Positions 4,085-55,286 of a stretch of 64,000 bases of DNA are shown here, piece after piece. A program made the translations under genes and the position numbers. The DNA comes from a virus. The first letter of the stretch is position 1; each line of letters starts with the position of its first letter. The DNA is taken from positions 87,360-151,359 of IMG/VR virus record IMGVR_UViG_3300020123_000589; one strand, written 5' to 3'. Under the pieces are notes generated by a model, which was given only the letters and a program-made list of their open reading frames with translations, was not told the DNA's origin and did no database searches.

Positions 4085-5782
4085 ATGCCTTCAATTAATA
4101 ATCAGCCAACTCTTCCTGGTGTGTATTCGCAAGTGCAGCAACAGCTACTCCCCTCAGTAACGGGCGGTATCCGTGTTGCAGCATTTATTGGAACAGGCCG
4201 TCTAACAAATTTAGTTACGGGCGAAGCCGTAACTCGCGGTTCTGGTAATAATGATGCTCTCGCCCACACTGCAACAATTCTTGATGGAACTACCATTACT
4301 GATCAGAATTTCGCTGTGTACGAATCAGGTGCGGATTATAATTCATCTCCTGTTTCAGGTGGAATAGGTTGGCTTACTGGTGCTGCTCAAATCACAGGGA
4401 CAACTTCCGCTCCTTATGCAGACCAAGCCACAAAAACTTTCTCGTTTAAAGTTGGAAATACTACACCTACCGTCGTAACATTCACAACTCCAGCTATTAC
4501 TCTTACTGAAGTTGTAACTCAAATTAATACCGCTTATGGTGACACAATAGCTTCTGCAAATGGTTCTAGCCTAGAACTTAGCACAGGAACATTAACTGTT
4601 CCAGTGTTATTTAATACATCAATCACAATCGAAAATGGAACAGCAGCATCTGCTCTAGGATTTACTCCTGGATCATTGGTTTCTGCTCCTTCTCGTCCAG
4701 CTCTTGGAGTTGTTTATTTTGTCAATTACGAGTGGGCCAAAGCAGTAGGCGATGGTCAAAACTCTTTTGAACCACAGTTTTTCTTTTTACAAAACTTCAG
4801 CACGATCACCAATGCTATGGGATCTGTTGGTGGTGGAGATTCTCAAACTGCTAATATGAACGGCGCGTGGACTCTTCCTGTTGCTGCTCAGCTTGCTCAG
4901 CAAAATGGAGCCAGCATTATTTGTTTGATGCAGATGAATCCTGTTGATGGTGCTAATGCTTCTCAAGTTCGTTCAGCACTTACAAAACTTTTTATTCCTA
5001 ATATTAACATTGTAGTTTCATTAGATGCAGCAGATAATGCGATGTTAATTCCTGATATTACGAATCATGTGGAAGAGGCATCTAGCACAATTAATCGATT
5101 AGAGAGAACAGCATTTATTGGATTCTCAGCACTTTCAAATCCAAGTGATGCTACTATGCTTGGATATGCAACGGCTGCTTCTAGCAATCGCGTTGTTGTC
5201 GTCAACCAAACAAATACCACATATACGATGTTTGTTGGTACTAATACACTTCCATCCACCGTTGATGGTACGATGATGGCTGCTGCTCTTGCTGCTTTAA
5301 GAACAAATCCAGCCTTTGATGTTGCCCAGCCACTTACTCGTGAAATAGTTTCTGGTATTGCCACTACGAATACGTTAGCACAATCAGAAAAGACTATCTT
5401 TGCAAATCAAGGTGTATTGGTTGTTGATAATATTTCAGGGTCAGCCAAGGTTGTATTTGGAACGACAACCGAGTTTGCCGATATTCTTGATCAGCTTTAT
5501 CAGGTTGTTGAGATTAGTGATTATTGTGCTCAAACTATTCGCGGATTGTTAGATCCTATTTTCATCGGACAAAAATTGCTTGCAAATACACCTTCACAGG
5601 TTGAGACAGTTACTTCAGCAATTCTATCGGATATTGAATCCAGTAATATTATTGAGTCATTTACACAACCAACGGCTACAGTAAATCCATTGCAACCTAC
5701 GCAGATCCTAGTTAATGTTGGAGTACAGCCTGTACTCGAACTCGATACTATTTTCATTACGTTAGGTTTGAATTTGGCATAA
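4085..5782 (+). CDS. Contractile tail sheath protein
   Basis: A 565-residue protein with the N-terminal 'PTLPGVYSQVQQQ' and 'RVAAFIGTGRL' typical of phage tail sheath proteins. A variable domain follows (about 80-210), then a core with 'NPVDGANASQVRSALTKL' and a C-terminal domain ending 'PTQILVNVGVQPVLELDTIF', which matches the conserved beta-strand tail that links sheath subunits. It sits directly before the tube gene, the universal order in myoviruses. Strong SD (GAGGAG) upstream. This gene identifies the virion as contractile-tailed. Confidence 0.9.
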   Translation: MPSINNQPTLPGVYSQVQQQLLPSVTGGIRVAAFIGTGRLTNLVTGEAVTRGSGNNDALAHTATILDGTTITDQNFAVYESGADYNSSPVSGGIGWLTGAAQITGTTSAPYADQATKTFSFKVGNTTPTVVTFTTPAITLTEVVTQINTAYGDTIASANGSSLELSTGTLTVPVLFNTSITIENGTAASALGFTPGSLVSAPSRPALGVVYFVNYEWAKAVGDGQNSFEPQFFFLQNFSTITNAMGSVGGGDSQTANMNGAWTLPVAAQLAQQNGASIICLMQMNPVDGANASQVRSALTKLFIPNINIVVSLDAADNAMLIPDITNHVEEASSTINRLERTAFIGFSALSNPSDATMLGYATAASSNRVVVVNQTNTTYTMFVGTNTLPSTVDGTMMAAALAALRTNPAFDVAQPLTREIVSGIATTNTLAQSEKTIFANQGVLVVDNISGSAKVVFGTTTEFADILDQLYQVVEISDYCAQTIRGLLDPIFIGQKLLANTPSQVETVTSAILSDIESSNIIESFTQPTATVNPLQPTQILVNVGVQPVLELDTIFITLGLNLA

Positions 5783-31055: not shown

Positions 31056-31625
31056 ATGCCACATAGTACGTTTGCAAAACGAAGAGCTTATTATAAGAGA
31101 CGCAGAAAATACTTTAATAAGAAAAGTCTTGAATATTATCATGCTCATAAAAGAAGGATGAAGAAGCAACGTAAAAAGTGGAGAGATACTCCAAAAAATA
31201 AAAAGAAACTATTAAGAGAAAAAAGAAAATATTATCGAAAGCATAGAGCTAAATTTTTACGTTGGCATAAAAAATATTATAAGAAACATAGAAGGCGCAT
31301 AAGAGAACGAACAGCTTCTCCAACTATCAGGTACTCAAATTTTAGAACCAGTTCTAAAAGAAGAAAATTGGTTTGCAATATAAAATTGGAGACATATGTT
31401 AAATTAATTTCCAAACCCTGTTTTTATTGCGGTGGTAAATTAGAAAGATTTGGTATAGGACTTGATAGAATAAATAGTTTAAAAGGTTATATTGTTGGAA
31501 ATGTTGTGCCGTGCTGTCCTATGTGTAATACGATAAAATGGGATCTTACTGTAAAAGAATTATTAATACACATAAAATTAATATACAAACGATTTAAAAA
31601 AGGGTACTTTAAAAAATATTTATGA
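31056..31625 (+). CDS. HNH endonuclease (basic, CxxC type)
   Basis: A 189-residue, extremely Lys/Arg/Tyr-rich protein. The first 100 residues are repeats of 'xYYxxHRxxxxxxxKK' likely to lie in DNA. The nuclease module is 'PCFYCGGKLERFGIGLDRIN', 'NVVPCCPMCNTIK', with Asp-Arg-Ile-Asn as the active-site strand. It closely resembles the protein at 63392-63886. It has no own promoter and begins one base after the previous gene's stop. Confidence 0.8.
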   Translation: MPHSTFAKRRAYYKRRRKYFNKKSLEYYHAHKRRMKKQRKKWRDTPKNKKKLLREKRKYYRKHRAKFLRWHKKYYKKHRRRIRERTASPTIRYSNFRTSSKRRKLVCNIKLETYVKLISKPCFYCGGKLERFGIGLDRINSLKGYIVGNVVPCCPMCNTIKWDLTVKELLIHIKLIYKRFKKGYFKKYL

Positions 31626-32635
31626 ATAAAATCGTGGAAATAAAATTTGGAAGTCATTTATATGGGTGTGCTACACAATCTAGTGATTCCGACTTTAAGG
31701 GTATTTATTTACCAACGTCCAGGCAGATCGTTCTTGGGCAGGGAAAGCATAACGTCAGTACATCACGTCCGAAGAAAGAATTTGAGAAGAATAGTAAAGA
31801 TGATGTGGATTCCGAAACCTTCAGTCTCAAAGAATATTTAAAGCTGCTTTGTGAAGGACAGACGGTTGCGTTGGACATGCTTTTTAGTCCCGCCTCTTTT
31901 CATGTGTTCAAAGGGGAGCGGTATGATTTATTTCAGAACATTTATGAGAATAAAGATAAGTTGCTTTCTAAGGGGATTTTAAGTTTCATTGGATACGCCA
32001 GAAAGCAGAGCGCGAAATACGGGATCAAAGGATCTCGCGTTCGAGCAGTAAAGGATACACTTGAATTTTTGAATACAGCTGTTTCTAATGGTGTTAACAA
32101 CCAATTACTTTTAAAAGATACTAATGTAAAAAGTGGATTAGATAATTTTATTACATCGGTTAATTCAGAATTCATTAAATATGTAGAATTGCCAGATCCT
32201 AACGGAATAATAGTACCTTATTTTGAGGTGTGCAACCGAAAGTTTCAAATGACAAATTCTATCAAATATACGTTAGCGGTTTTAAATAAAATTTACGATG
32301 AATATGGGCAACGGGCTAAGTTGGCTGAGGTTAACGATGGAATAGATTGGAAAGCATTGAGCCATGCTGTGCGTGTCAACTTTGAAGGACAGGAACTATT
32401 GAAGACAGGATTTATTACATTTCCCTGTCCAGAAAGGAAGCTTCTTTTGGATATTAAGACAGGTAAACTTCCCTATAAAGAGGTTGAAATCCTAATTGAG
32501 AATGGATTAAAGGATTTAGAGAATGCCCAAAAAACCTCTAAATTACCACAAAAACCCGATCTCAAATGGGCTGAGGATTTTGTGTACGACGTTTATTCTG
32601 AGATTGTCAAAAATAAACCCTTGACAATTTTATAA
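31622..32635 (+). CDS. RlaP-like nucleotidyltransferase
   Basis: A 337-residue DNA polymerase beta-superfamily nucleotidyltransferase. Active site 'FGSHLYGCATQSSDSDFKG' gives Gly10-Ser11 and Asp22/Asp24; the third acidic residue is probably in 'DVDSETFSL'. The C-terminal half is helical. Such proteins (COG3541 type) are known from RNA-repair gene clusters and several large phages. The start overlaps the HNH gene (ATGA), and its 3' end contains the -35 of the next promoter. Confidence 0.8.
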   Translation: MNKIVEIKFGSHLYGCATQSSDSDFKGIYLPTSRQIVLGQGKHNVSTSRPKKEFEKNSKDDVDSETFSLKEYLKLLCEGQTVALDMLFSPASFHVFKGERYDLFQNIYENKDKLLSKGILSFIGYARKQSAKYGIKGSRVRAVKDTLEFLNTAVSNGVNNQLLLKDTNVKSGLDNFITSVNSEFIKYVELPDPNGIIVPYFEVCNRKFQMTNSIKYTLAVLNKIYDEYGQRAKLAEVNDGIDWKALSHAVRVNFEGQELLKTGFITFPCPERKLLLDIKTGKLPYKEVEILIENGLKDLENAQKTSKLPQKPDLKWAEDFVYDVYSEIVKNKPLTIL

Positions 32636-49913: not shown

Positions 49914-50939
49914 TTGATTTCCCAAGTCGTACTCGAAAACTTTCAAAGCCACAAACATTCAACTTTTAGTTTCGATAAAGGATTGAATTTAGTTGTAGGG
50001 TCGAGCAATCAAGGAAAAACTTCCTTGGTTCGCGCATTGTCGCTTGTGCTTTACAACCAATGGGATAAAAGTTGGACGAGGGTGGGTTCTGCGTTTTGTA
50101 AAATTACTTTGGTAATGGATAATGGTGTTACAATAATCCGTGAGAAAGGCGATAAGCAGAATAAATATATTTTGCAAGTTCCAGGTCAGCCTGAACAAAC
50201 GTTTACGAATTTTGGAACTGAAGTTCCTGAAACTGTAAGCAAAATATTACACATTGGAAAAATTGAATTGGACAAAGATGATTCGCTTACCCTTAATTAC
50301 GCTTCACAATTAGAACCGCTATTTTTATTCAATCGCAGTGGCGCACAGAAAGCGAAGGTATTTGGACGTTTATCAGGTGCTCATTACCTCGACCACGCTC
50401 TCCGCAATTTAAATGTCGAAAAACGCAGTATTAGTGTCGAAAAGAACCTCAAAACTAAAGAGTTGGTCGATTTACAAACTCAACATGTCGCTTTAAATGC
50501 CATTTTAGGGTTTCGTCCCAAAATTGAAGAGCTGGAAGGTAGAAATACCGCTTTAGATGCCGCTAAGCAGCGCGTAGAAGCCCTCAAATCGCTTCTTAAG
50601 CGGGTTCAAGATTGGAAACGACACTATGAGGCCGAGATAGTAAAAGAAACGCTACTGAGCCAAGCCAAGGCGGTGGAAATTGATTCTGTAACTGCTTCAG
50701 TACAGCGATTGAAAGCATTGAAACAGCTTTTTAATTGGAACAACGACCTTTTAAGCAAAGAAAATTCATTAAATACTGCTAAAACTGAATTATCCCTGGA
50801 ATTTGAGGCTACCACCAGTGAATATGCATCTGTTTTAGGAGAAAATAAGGTGTGCCCAACGTGTTTTGGACAATTAAATAATGAAAAATTGCGAGATATT
50901 AAAAACTCCTTGACTGGGAAAGAGAAATGCTCTATTTAA
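49914..50939 (+). CDS. SbcC/Rad50 N-terminal half with zinc hook
   Basis: A 341-residue protein starting at TTG. 'LENFQSHKHSTFSFDKGLN' and Walker A 'VGSSNQGKTSL' (29-36) are the N-terminal ATPase lobe of SbcC. A coiled coil follows (160-300), ending in the hook 'VCPTCFGQL' (Cys314, Cys317). The gene then stops 24 residues after the hook, so the returning coil, signature motif and Walker B are missing. Those parts are found in separate genes at 53069-53323 and 53301-53936. Confidence 0.85.
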   Translation: MISQVVLENFQSHKHSTFSFDKGLNLVVGSSNQGKTSLVRALSLVLYNQWDKSWTRVGSAFCKITLVMDNGVTIIREKGDKQNKYILQVPGQPEQTFTNFGTEVPETVSKILHIGKIELDKDDSLTLNYASQLEPLFLFNRSGAQKAKVFGRLSGAHYLDHALRNLNVEKRSISVEKNLKTKELVDLQTQHVALNAILGFRPKIEELEGRNTALDAAKQRVEALKSLLKRVQDWKRHYEAEIVKETLLSQAKAVEIDSVTASVQRLKALKQLFNWNNDLLSKENSLNTAKTELSLEFEATTSEYASVLGENKVCPTCFGQLNNEKLRDIKNSLTGKEKCSI

Positions 50940-51695: not shown

Positions 51696-51992
51696 ATGAA
51701 ACTTCGATTTTTTATTTATAGTAGTTTGTTGTTTGTAACTTTGGCATTGCCTGTTGTTTATAAAACAATTGATTACAATCTTCAACAACAGGAAATCTTA
51801 ACGAGACGGCAAAAAGAAAATTGGCTCAATGATGCAGCAGATACGGAAATTGTTTTAATGCGTTTAGCACAAGCTCTTCACAATCATGAAGCATTTTGGG
51901 ATCATTTTGACAAATTTCTAGAATATCAGCTTTTGCGTTGTAAAATGATTAAAGAAGATTTGAACCAAATATTGGGAAGTTTCAACTCTTGA
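51696..51992 (+). CDS. Membrane-anchored small protein
   Basis: A 98-residue protein with an N-terminal hydrophobic helix ('FFIYSSLLFVTLALPVVYK') and a helical cytoplasmic or periplasmic remainder. It might be a spanin-like or anchor protein but has no lipobox. The stop overlaps the SbcD start. Confidence 0.6.
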   Translation: MKLRFFIYSSLLFVTLALPVVYKTIDYNLQQQEILTRRQKENWLNDAADTEIVLMRLAQALHNHEAFWDHFDKFLEYQLLRCKMIKEDLNQILGSFNS

Positions 51993-52918
51993 AATTTTTA
52001 TTCTTCACCGATTCCCACCTACGCGATTCTCGCCCTCGAAATCGTATCGACGATTTTTATAAATCGCAATTTGAGGAACTCGGGGAATTGGCGAATCTTG
52101 TGTTGGAGCATGATGTTGATGCTTTGCTTTGTGGAGGCGATCTTCTACACGTTCCAAAACCCTCTCACGAACTCGTTCGAGATTTGATTGGTTGGGCAAA
52201 ATATATAAACGTTCCAATTTATTCTGTAATCGGCAACCATGATACGGTTGGATACCAGATGGATGCAATTGGTTCAAACGGAATTGGCGTTTTATTTGAA
52301 TCTGAAGCTTTCCATGAGTTAACTGAGAAAGTGTTCGAAGAAGAGAAAATTATAATTAGAGGAATTAACGCAAAGGTTCAGGAAGATGGGTACGGGTATG
52401 AGTTTGAACCAAAATATGCTGGGTACACAAGGTTGATTGTTTCCCACAACTACATTATCGATGCTGAAAGTATGATGTTCGATTTTATGCAACCCAAGAA
52501 TGTTCCGACAAATGCTGATTTAATCCTTTTGGGTCACTACCACCACCCATTCCAAACGCAGGTAAAAAACACGCAATTCATTAACCCTGGAGCCCTTTCA
52601 CGCTGGGGAATTGACGAAGCAAATAGAATTCCAACAGTCTTGTTAATTGAGATAGCCAATGGTATAGTTGATGTGAAGCATATTCCCCTTGCTTGTGCAA
52701 AGAAGGCAGAAGAGATTTTTGATTTGAATAAAGTGGGGGTAGAAAAAGATAAAGAGGATCAACTTAAAAGCTTTATGGATTCGCTTGAGAATACGTCCTT
52801 TGAAACAAACGACATTGAAGCTTTAGTTTTGGCAGCAGGAAAGAATCAAGGAGTCGAAGAGAGAATCCTGAACAAATCGCTTGAAAAGATTCGAGAAGCG
52901 AAAGAGATCCTGAAATGA
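51989..52918 (+). CDS. sbcD: SbcD/Mre11-like nuclease
   Basis: A 309-residue protein starting at TTG. Full nuclease motif set: 'FTDSHLRD' (Asp8, His10), 'CGGDLLHVP', 'VIGNHDTVG', 'VSHNYII', 'LLGHYHHPFQ', then 'INPGALSRW'. It is the Mre11-type partner of SbcC/Rad50 and corresponds to T4 gp47. It lies between the two halves of the split SbcC. The end overlaps the next start (ATGA). Confidence 0.88.
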   Translation: MKFLFFTDSHLRDSRPRNRIDDFYKSQFEELGELANLVLEHDVDALLCGGDLLHVPKPSHELVRDLIGWAKYINVPIYSVIGNHDTVGYQMDAIGSNGIGVLFESEAFHELTEKVFEEEKIIIRGINAKVQEDGYGYEFEPKYAGYTRLIVSHNYIIDAESMMFDFMQPKNVPTNADLILLGHYHHPFQTQVKNTQFINPGALSRWGIDEANRIPTVLLIEIANGIVDVKHIPLACAKKAEEIFDLNKVGVEKDKEDQLKSFMDSLENTSFETNDIEALVLAAGKNQGVEERILNKSLEKIREAKEILK

Positions 52919-53079: not shown

Positions 53080-53323
53080 AGACACACTTTCATCATTAAA
53101 GAAAAAGATCGACTTAATCAACACAAAGAAGATCGAGAATGCTACGAAGTTACATGCTTTGGAAGAAGAAAAGGCTAAACTTCTTCAAGAATGCCGAGCT
53201 TTAGGAGTTGATCCAACCAGTCTTGAAAAAATTGTTGTGGATGAAGAAACTAAGTTGAATAATGAGATTCAAACGCTCCAAAATGAAATAGGACAGGTTT
53301 ATGAGCAGCTTAGCAAATTTTAA
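53069..53323 (+). CDS. Coiled-coil segment protein of split SbcC
   Basis: An 84-residue, entirely helical coiled coil ('LSSLKKKIDLINTKK', '[19 protein letters not shown]'). It lies between SbcD and the SbcC C-lobe and overlaps the latter by 23 bases. It may supply the returning arm of the Rad50 coil, as neither flanking gene contains it in full. The start at ATG 53069 has GAGG upstream. Confidence 0.6.
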   Translation: MNIEDTLSSLKKKIDLINTKKIENATKLHALEEEKAKLLQECRALGVDPTSLEKIVVDEETKLNNEIQTLQNEIGQVYEQLSKF

Positions 53324-53936
53324 TAATTTAAAAAATCTCTTTAACCAGAAACTTGGTAAGTTGGATGCCGTTACCAACTCTTTGAATATTTGCGAGAAGA
53401 GAATTAACGAGCTTACTTTGAACGAAGATACGGTTTCTAAATCCAGTTTGTTCCTTCAATCCTTGAGCGATACCGCACGTATCCAAGTAATAGAAAAGAT
53501 TAGTGGGCTCGTCACTGAAGTGTTACAAGCAGTGAAAGACAAGAATTTAACGTTTAAGATGGAACTTGGGAACGAGCGTGGCCAGCCGGATTTAAAATTC
53601 TTTGTTGTAGATAGTTTGACAGGTAAAGAGATGGACGTACTTGAAAGCTGTGGTGGAGGAATTGCCGATTTGGTTAGTTTCGCTTTGCGCGTGTCGCTTC
53701 TTTTAAAATGGCAACCAAGGCTTGAGCGTGTTTTGATTTGCGATGAAAACCTGAAATTCATAAGCGTAGCCGACCAAGAATTGGCAGGAGAATTTGTACG
53801 AAAGCTTTCTGAACAGTTGGGATTACAGATTATTTTTATTTCACATTCAAAAACACTGGCAGAGAAAGCGCACCGTACCTTTGAGGTAATGAAAGAAAAT
53901 GGAATCAGCAGAGTCCAAGAAACAGCTTCTCTTTAG
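53301..53936 (+). CDS. SbcC/Rad50 C-terminal half
   Basis: A 211-residue protein. After a short coil (1-65) come the signature helix '[16 protein letters not shown]' (115-130), Walker B '[10 protein letters not shown]' (144-153) and the His-switch '[18 protein letters not shown]'. These are the C-terminal ATPase lobe motifs of SbcC, with Cys-Gly-Gly-Gly in place of Ser-Gly-Gly. Paired with the N-half at 49914-50939 it can form the composite ATPase. Confidence 0.85.
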
Positions 53937-54303
53937 TATTACACGAAAAGACTTCCGTGTTGATACTTTTCGCTCAGGCGGAAAGGGAGGCCAGAACCAG
54001 AATAAGGTTGAATCTGGTGTTCGCATCACACATTTAGAATCTGGTGCCGTAGCAGAATCTAGAGAAGAACGAGATCAGATTCGAAATAAAGAAAGAGCTT
54101 TTCAAAAACTTATTAACACCTCAAAGTTTAAAGCTTGGCATAAAGTAAAGACTTCTTTTATGTTGCAAGGGATTCAAGATGGAGAAGTAGAGCTTGAACG
54201 TAGAGTTAACGAAGCAATGAAACTTGAGAATTTAAAAGTAGAAGGTAAAGACGAGAATGGACGTTGGAGTAAAGAAGCGGTTGAGGAAAATGAGCGAGAA
54301 TAG
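53899..54303 (+). CDS. Release-factor-like (GGQ) protein
   Basis: A 134-residue RF domain: '[20 protein letters not shown]' carries the catalytic Gly-Gly-Gln (30-32), followed by '[16 protein letters not shown]', the strand-helix typical of RF1/RF2 domain 3. Codon-recognition domains are absent, as in PrfH, ArfB and ICT1, which free stalled ribosomes. The C-terminal part is charged helix. Overlaps SbcC-C by 38 bases and the cREC gene by 14 bases. Confidence 0.85.
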
Positions 54304-54652
54304 AGATTTCAAACTCTTTGTGGATGATACTCGTGAAATCCCAAAAGGATGGATGGGAGCAAGAACCGTTTCTGATACGCTCAGGTTTCTTCACATGTTC
54401 AGCCCTATTGCCGAAATCAGTTTGGATCATGACATTCTGTTTCCTCAGCATGGAATTGACAGGTATACGATGTATGCAGCCGAGAATTATACTGGAGTCG
54501 CTTACTACATTGCACGAATGCCCGAAGAGTTGCGACCAAAGATAATACGCATTCATTCTTCTAATTCTGGGGCTGCAATGACGATGTGTGAAATTATGGG
54601 GTTGAATTTTGATACAACGTACAAGCTTTATGATCCAAAGAATTATGAGTAA
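54290..54652 (+). CDS. cREC-type cyclic-phosphate receiver domain protein
   Basis: A 120-residue protein with the cREC pattern: '[20 protein letters not shown]' start (Asp12, Asp13), then 'ISLDHDI' and '[15 protein letters not shown]'. These receiver-like domains are predicted from gene neighbourhoods to process cyclic phosphate ends during RNA repair. The adjacency to a release-factor-like gene, and an RlaP-like gene elsewhere in the genome, fit such a setting. Confidence 0.75.
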
Positions 54653-55286
54653 AATGAAAAAATGTATTAAATGTGGTGAAAGTAAGCCAGAAGAAGTTTT
54701 TGACAAAACTAAAGACAAGATTGGTAGAATAGATACTTGTAAGCTATGTAAATTTAACTGGGATGCTGTAGTACGTTCTGCCATTCGAAGATCTTTTGCC
54801 CGATCCCCAAAAGTAATAGAAGTAATGTTAACGGGTCGTAGAGTTGTTCCACGTTATACCAAAAGTGGGGAAAGGCATAAAGTTGATGCAGTAGAGTTTC
54901 AATGCCAAACTTGTAATGGTTGGTTTATTAGAAAATTTATTTCTGTTGATCATTTTGTACCTGTAGTGAGTGTTGAAGAGGGCTTTCAGACCTGGGACAT
55001 TTTTATTGAACGAATCAATTGCGATAGAAAGAATTTAAAACGAATATGTGAAAATTGTCACCAAGCCAAGTCGAATGTAGAGCGTGATAAACGCAATGCA
55101 ATTCAAGATGGAGTTGCACTTAGTAACTTGGAAATTAACATTCAAAGTGTTTGGACAATTCCAGAATTAAAAGAACTTAAAAAGCAAGTATCCAAATTCT
55201 TAACTAAAACCAAAGCCCAAGAAACTCGTGAACGTGCTTTGAAATTAAAACAAATTATCATAGACAAGATTGAAAAGGAAGATTGA
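54645..55286 (+). CDS. HNH endonuclease with zinc ribbons
   Basis: A 213-residue protein. N-terminal 'CIKCGESKPEEVF' with 'CKLCK' is a zinc ribbon; centre 'FQCQTCNGWF', 'ISVDHFVPVVS' and 'ICENCHQAKSNVERD' form the HNH site (His-x-Pro after Asp-His). The C-terminal part is helical and basic. The start overlaps the cREC stop; ATG 54654 is an alternative. A probable free-standing homing enzyme inserted after cREC. Confidence 0.8.
   Translation: MSKMKKCIKCGESKPEEVFDKTKDKIGRIDTCKLCKFNWDAVVRSAIRRSFARSPKVIEVMLTGRRVVPRYTKSGERHKVDAVEFQCQTCNGWFIRKFISVDHFVPVVSVEEGFQTWDIFIERINCDRKNLKRICENCHQAKSNVERDKRNAIQDGVALSNLEINIQSVWTIPELKELKKQVSKFLTKTKAQETRERALKLKQIIIDKIEKED

Follow-up and report, generated by a model that had tools for sequence, protein, structure and literature searches.

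A phage family of release-factor-like GGQ proteins that keeps company with tRNA arrays and RNA ligases, and a possible role for it in ribosome rescue

The repair of cut tRNA by phages is well known. We know of no account of how a phage deals with ribosomes in which a broken tRNA or mRNA is already lodged. Several described systems contain a release-factor (RF) fold. PrfH, encoded in the bacterial RtcB2-PrfH operon, is a GGQ factor linked to an RNA ligase and keeps part of the decoding-site domain (PMC9223846, PMC6514570). ArfB (YaeJ) and mitochondrial ICT1 are single RF-1 domains of ~130 residues that lack codon recognition, and ArfB ends in a basic C-terminal tail; mtRF-R (C12orf65), which acts in mitochondrial split-subunit rescue, is likewise a short GGQ protein without codon recognition. 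In mycobacterial tRNA arrays an RF-1-domain gene occurs with Pth and tmRNA, and extra ribosome rescue has been suggested (Morgado & Vicente 2018, PMC5966550). On the side of RNA repair, the consulted passages of PMC7824862 and PMC9503650 tie the cREC domain to RNA ligases in jumbo phages and treat cyclic-phosphate hydrolysis by cREC as a prediction only; we found no GGQ factor paired with cREC there.

The gene described here lies in the last 64 kb (the window) of a 151,359-base viral contig, IMGVR_UViG_3300020123_000589, with a GC content of 38%. Its product had been described, from the sequence alone, as an RF domain of 134 residues with a GGQ motif and no codon-recognition domain, and this description stands. 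The RF-1 profile PF00472 matches at 2.7e-20 (72.9 bits, cut-off 35 bits) but spans only profile positions 5-68 of 116, and no other part of the 134 residues gave a profile match to a codon-recognition domain. Only 29 residues precede the GGQ triplet, which is encoded within a 15-residue stretch, and the catalytic domain is followed by a family-specific C-terminus of ~50 residues. Since the protein has no codon-recognition domain, it is unlikely to read stop codons. Nor is there any sign that recoding of stop codons explains why a phage would carry such a gene: the phage uses all three stops of the standard genetic code (TAA 120, TGA 56, TAG 20), and no suppressor is present among its four tRNAs (ARAGORN).

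Features of the phage record. G000 coordinates refer to the whole 151-kb record and L003 to its early region; all others refer to the 64-kb window.
Feature	Position	Strand	Evidence
GGQ release-factor-like protein, 134 aa	53899..54303	+	PF00472, PHROG 3122, AF2/Foldseek, dN/dS
GGQ catalytic codons, residues 30-32	53986..53994	+	Sequence; alignment of 46 homologues
cREC (cyclic-phosphate processing receiver-like) protein, 120 aa	54290..54652	+	PF20274; Foldseek receiver fold
SbcC-like C-terminal ATPase fragment	53301..53936	+	PHROG 15167 ATPase 1.6e-28; PHROG 77 SbcC 1.1e-5
RlaP-like nucleotidyltransferase	31622..32635	+	PF10127 3.2e-15; PHROG 388 1.4e-84
T4 Rnl1-type RNA ligase	G000:11171-12298		PF09511 4.2e-26; T4 Rnl1 structures 8e-14
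HD + AAA_33 P-loop kinase fusion (polynucleotide-kinase-like)	G000:19483-20667 (L003:483-1664)		Kinase half matches Clostridium Pnkp kinase structures

An AF2 model of the GGQ protein (pLDDT 84.5) finds its best Foldseek matches in the GGQ domains of RF1 and RF2, followed more weakly by PrfH, mtRF-R and ICT1; the fold match to mtRF-R (7a5h) is weak and the sequence identity low. A comparison with the closest relative of the phage, IMGVR_UViG_3300005542_000007 (88% amino acid identity), gives a dN/dS of 0.04 in the GGQ gene and of 0.10 in the cREC gene that follows it. Both genes are thus under purifying selection, and these low values mark them as real, constrained genes rather than chance open reading frames.

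Profile and motif evidence places the GGQ protein in the phage family PHROG 3122 ('RF-1 domain peptide chain release factor'; 2.9e-25), which is characterised by a near-invariant ten-residue motif, its own C-terminus of ~50 residues and no basic tail. Among 46 aligned members, D18, G30, G31, Q32, N35, H45, R58 and N63 are invariant and the C-terminus follows the pattern M.PENLK.E....G.W. The mycobacteriophage members (clusters C, M and related) have the same length and the same motif and also lack a codon-recognition domain. Named phages with the family are mostly mycobacteriophages and carry the gene under the label 'RF-1 peptide chain release factor', which comes from annotation; the phage studied here differs in having cREC, not a tRNA array, beside the gene. 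A search of 2.9 million IMG/VR viral contigs gave 56 loci, and the same kind of pattern search in 84,980 bacterial and archaeal GTDB genomes gave eight. Two members (L072 and L074) come from contigs assigned by binning to Saccharibacteria and Pacearchaeota and may belong to phages that infect ultra-small hosts.

The PrfH-like identity put forward in the sequence-only reading is not borne out. NCBIfam release_prfH gives 54.5 bits (cut-off 166.65), and membership of PrfH was ruled out by this score, by the complete absence of the decoding-site domain that PrfH retains in part, and by the lack of RtcB in the 151-kb record; RtcB does adjoin the GGQ gene in some phage relatives, as in RtcB2-PrfH. 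Membership of ArfB was ruled out in the same way, by score (28 bits, cut-off 100) and by the missing basic C-terminal tail, the last 30 residues having a mean charge of -2.3 in the family compared with +9 in E. coli ArfB. Could the gene instead be an ordinary truncated host RF2 or RF1, recently captured and possibly non-functional? The best NCBIfam matches are indeed prfB (72.9 bits) and prfA (70 bits), far below the cut-offs of 370 and 400; the GGQ domain stands alone at 134 residues, unlike a full-length RF1 or RF2 with its codon-recognition domain. A tree of the GGQ region that includes RF1 and RF2 of E. coli and Acinetobacter and PrfH and ArfB of E. coli splits the phage proteins off as a separate long-stemmed family with a support of 0.96, in an alignment of ~100 columns that leaves the deeper order unresolved. 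The tree therefore contradicts a grouping with RF2, which had been named as an outcome that would weaken the link to RNA repair. Together with the family's own motif and C-terminus, the low dN/dS and the recurrence of the exact DNA pattern encoding the motif in 54 IMG/VR contigs, all within the same set of relatives, it leads us to reject a truncated host factor, an explanation to which we give almost no credence.

The second gene of the pair had been read as a cREC-type receiver protein of 120 residues whose gene overlaps the GGQ gene by 14 bases, and both points hold. The overlap covers 54290-54303, with the cREC start ATG at 54290 preceded by GAGGAAA, and PF20274 (cREC_REC) matches at 7.5e-15 (55.8 bits, cut-off 27). 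The top Foldseek matches of the model are receiver domains (TM ~0.58, E ~0.01), so that the structure does not place the protein outside cREC, the other outcome named beforehand as damaging. The active-site aspartates are conserved: D12, D13 and H47 are invariant in an eight-row alignment and D12, D13, D46 and D48 in a six-row alignment. The idea that GGQ and cREC form a recurring unit fared less well. The two genes adjoin in 2 of 50 carrier records, namely this phage and its 88%-identical relative, and single-sequence searches of named phages and IMG/VR with cREC returned close relatives only. A conserved pair was therefore ruled out; the pair is real in this lineage, yet by itself is no strong evidence of a system. 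The gene behind cREC (54630-55286) is zinc/HNH-like (PHROG 1985 HNH endonuclease, 2e-12) and possibly encodes a homing endonuclease.

The wider setting of RNA repair, in contrast, was upheld. The RlaP-like nucleotidyltransferase noted earlier is well above its profile threshold (PF10127, 56.9 bits, cut-off 23), and by prediction it replaces missing nucleotides before the RNA is ligated. The suggestion that a ligase, RtcB or a polynucleotide kinase might be found elsewhere in the record proved correct for a T4 Rnl1-type ligase and a kinase-like fusion and incorrect for RtcB. The fusion, of an HD domain and a P-loop kinase, resembles the HD-Pnk enzymes that heal RNA ends. A second cREC sits 1.6 kb behind the Rnl1-type ligase, an arrangement that fits the link between cREC and RNA ligases in the parts of the jumbo-phage literature consulted (PMC7824862, PMC9503650). 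Ligase, second cREC, HD-kinase fusion and RlaP would together make up a complete heal-refill-seal set. The GGQ gene of this phage is located away from them, with the ligase 129 kb off on the linear record and the nearest tRNA at 28 kb. The early region and the window also encode peptide deformylase, Clp proteases, an M50 peptidase and Thy1, and the window contains a match to a BT1/MFS-type transporter.

Across the family the association with RNA ligases is seen in gene content. Rnl1, Rnl2 or RtcB is present in 19/32 carriers, taken as records of at least 40 kb, compared with 3/35 controls (p=9e-6), these being size-cut contigs that were picked for a DNA polymerase A motif; none of the 35 controls contains an RF-1 domain. 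Many carriers are related and the records are often fragments, and kinship was handled by simple dereplication only, after which the counts are 15/27 and 2/34 (p=2e-5); among records of at least 100 kb they are 11/14 and 1/9 (p=0.0025). Neighbouring genes were called by profile searches and ARAGORN, because clustering of open reading frames tends to pick wrong frames in high-GC contigs and was unreliable there. Matches from antisense query frames (cREC in L007/L144 and some RlaP queries) were set aside, and of that search the RtcB matches and one Rnl2 match on the sense strand were used. Three lineages show positional linkage. In L039 and L041 the GGQ gene shares 11-19 nt with an RNA ligase gene; L027 and L030 have RtcB immediately upstream of it; and in prophages of Mycobacterium abscessus RtcB comes directly downstream, with one tRNA in between. 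We conclude that the link of the family to RNA repair is general at the level of gene content and positional in three lineages. In L039 (5336-8576) and L041 (5356-8650) the row runs on from GGQ gene and ligase to a gene resembling ribose-phosphate pyrophosphokinase, an identity that Pfam confirms in L039, and a NAMPT-like gene; this order sets RNA repair beside an apparent NAD salvage pathway. A macro-domain-like protein noted by eye ahead of the GGQ gene in L021 was dropped after Pfam gave no match.

The strongest positional pattern of the family is with tRNA. Within ±5 kb of the gene, 328 tRNAs were found in 525 kb, compared with five in 497 kb at control loci (6.2 and 0.10 per 10 kb), and whole records hold 416 tRNAs in carriers and 49 in controls, with ten or more in 14/32 and 1/35 respectively. 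Among ten tRNA-rich lineages examined in full, the gene lies in or near a tRNA array in seven, the nearest tRNA being 0-24 nt away in six and about 1.2 kb in the seventh, and it is closer to tRNAs than are random positions in the same genomes (combined p=0.001). In L015/L016 (1-10372) the gene is embedded in an array of about 29 tRNAs. A phage tmRNA shares the array with the gene in the M. abscessus prophages, and three lineages encode a PTH2 peptidyl-tRNA hydrolase no more than about 2.5 kb from the gene, with one of these matches falling slightly short of the Pfam threshold. Our search of the open-licence literature turned up neither the ligase link nor the wider distribution of the gene over unrelated phages.

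These patterns could also be produced by a general ribosome-rescue or recycling factor that serves phage translation with the phage tRNAs, tmRNA and PTH2 and has no special tie to RNA damage, the ligases being fellow travellers in translation-rich phages. The primacy of the tRNA arrays, the tmRNA in the same array, the proposal of extra rescue factors for mycobacterial arrays and the borderline, non-significant distance between GGQ gene and ligase within genomes when all carriers are combined (p=0.058) all suit such a factor. Against it stand the ligase-overlapping and RtcB-adjacent arrangements in three lineages, and the full repair kit of the present phage in the company of only four tRNAs; we regard it as unlikely, though still to be reckoned with.

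The immediate neighbourhood of the gene in this phage is of a different kind. The 3' end of the SbcC-like fragment overlaps the start of the GGQ gene (53899-53936) and belongs to an SbcCD/Rad50-Mre11-like set (49914-50936, 51989-52918 and 53301-53936) in which SbcC looks split: an N-terminal AAA_23 half is followed by an SbcD-like phosphoesterase, a separate C-terminal ATPase half and then the GGQ gene. Genes like SbcD or SbcC are also the direct neighbours of the GGQ gene in L024, L026 and L042, where it sits near locus position 5000, and cluster C mycobacteriophages have the gene flanked by DnaE and UvsX. Such neighbours, and the neighbourhoods of Cane17 and Sebata, could suggest that the RF-1 fold has been co-opted for a different substrate, for instance with RNA as its target or recombination proteins as its partners. 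The catalytic GGQ is strictly conserved, however, and the genes around the GGQ gene vary greatly from one lineage to the next, which would be expected if it were a mobile accessory gene in an early block, so that we find co-option very improbable. The position in an early or replication block in several phages, the phage-specific distribution and the lack of a codon-recognition domain have also to be set beside host takeover, in which a GGQ domain freed of codon control would abort host protein synthesis by releasing nascent chains non-specifically. This too we think improbable, if a shade less so: the gene travels with tRNAs, RNA ligases and PTH2, which sustain translation, and a non-specific releaser would also harm translation of the phage itself.

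We favour, with moderate confidence, the view that the protein is specific to phages and rescues ribosomes as a GGQ peptidyl-tRNA hydrolase that works independently of codons, and that this rescue is coupled to RNA repair by the phage. This view is suggested by the invariant GGQ, the RF-1 fold, the repair kit in the record, the association with ligases and RtcB, the closeness to tRNA arrays and the presence of PTH2. A GGQ domain that cannot read codons should act in release only where something besides a stop codon recruits it, and its company of tRNA arrays, ligases and PTH2 suggests that the place is a stalled ribosome, in phages for which damaged tRNA is to be expected. The likely task of this stripped-down GGQ factor is thus to release ribosomes that are blocked after host defences have cut RNA. 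Several observations count against this view: the protein has neither the basic tail that ArfB places in the mRNA channel nor the decoding-centre domain of PrfH; the gene here lies behind SbcC, far from ligase, kinase and tRNAs, and is paired with cREC in two related phages only; and there may be other reasons why phages rich in tRNAs hold many translation genes.

In a mechanism of this kind, host nucleases, perhaps anticodon nucleases, would cut tRNA or other RNA and so stall ribosomes. The GGQ protein would enter the A site or peptidyl-transferase centre of stalled ribosomes or split large subunits and hydrolyse peptidyl-tRNA, freeing the nascent chain so that ribosomes and tRNA could be re-used. 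From their family membership, cREC would open 2',3'-cyclic phosphates, the HD-kinase fusion would remove the 3' phosphate and phosphorylate the 5' end, RlaP would refill lost nucleotides and the Rnl1-type ligase would then seal the RNA. We infer this order of steps, in which the GGQ and cREC proteins might also be direct partners.

For the family as a whole, we see an even chance that phages own a class of GGQ rescue factor separate from both PrfH and ArfB, that this class accompanies tRNA arrays, RNA ligases or RtcB, and PTH2, and that it forms the peptide-release arm of a counter-defence against RNA-cutting immunity, a viral parallel to RtcB2-PrfH. The finding raises the structural question of how a GGQ domain with neither decoding domain nor basic tail finds a stalled ribosome, and the conserved C-terminal module is the obvious candidate for docking. 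The ribosome-clearing step would come from a phage GGQ factor found alongside tRNA arrays and ligases, and this can be tested in cultured mycobacteriophages.
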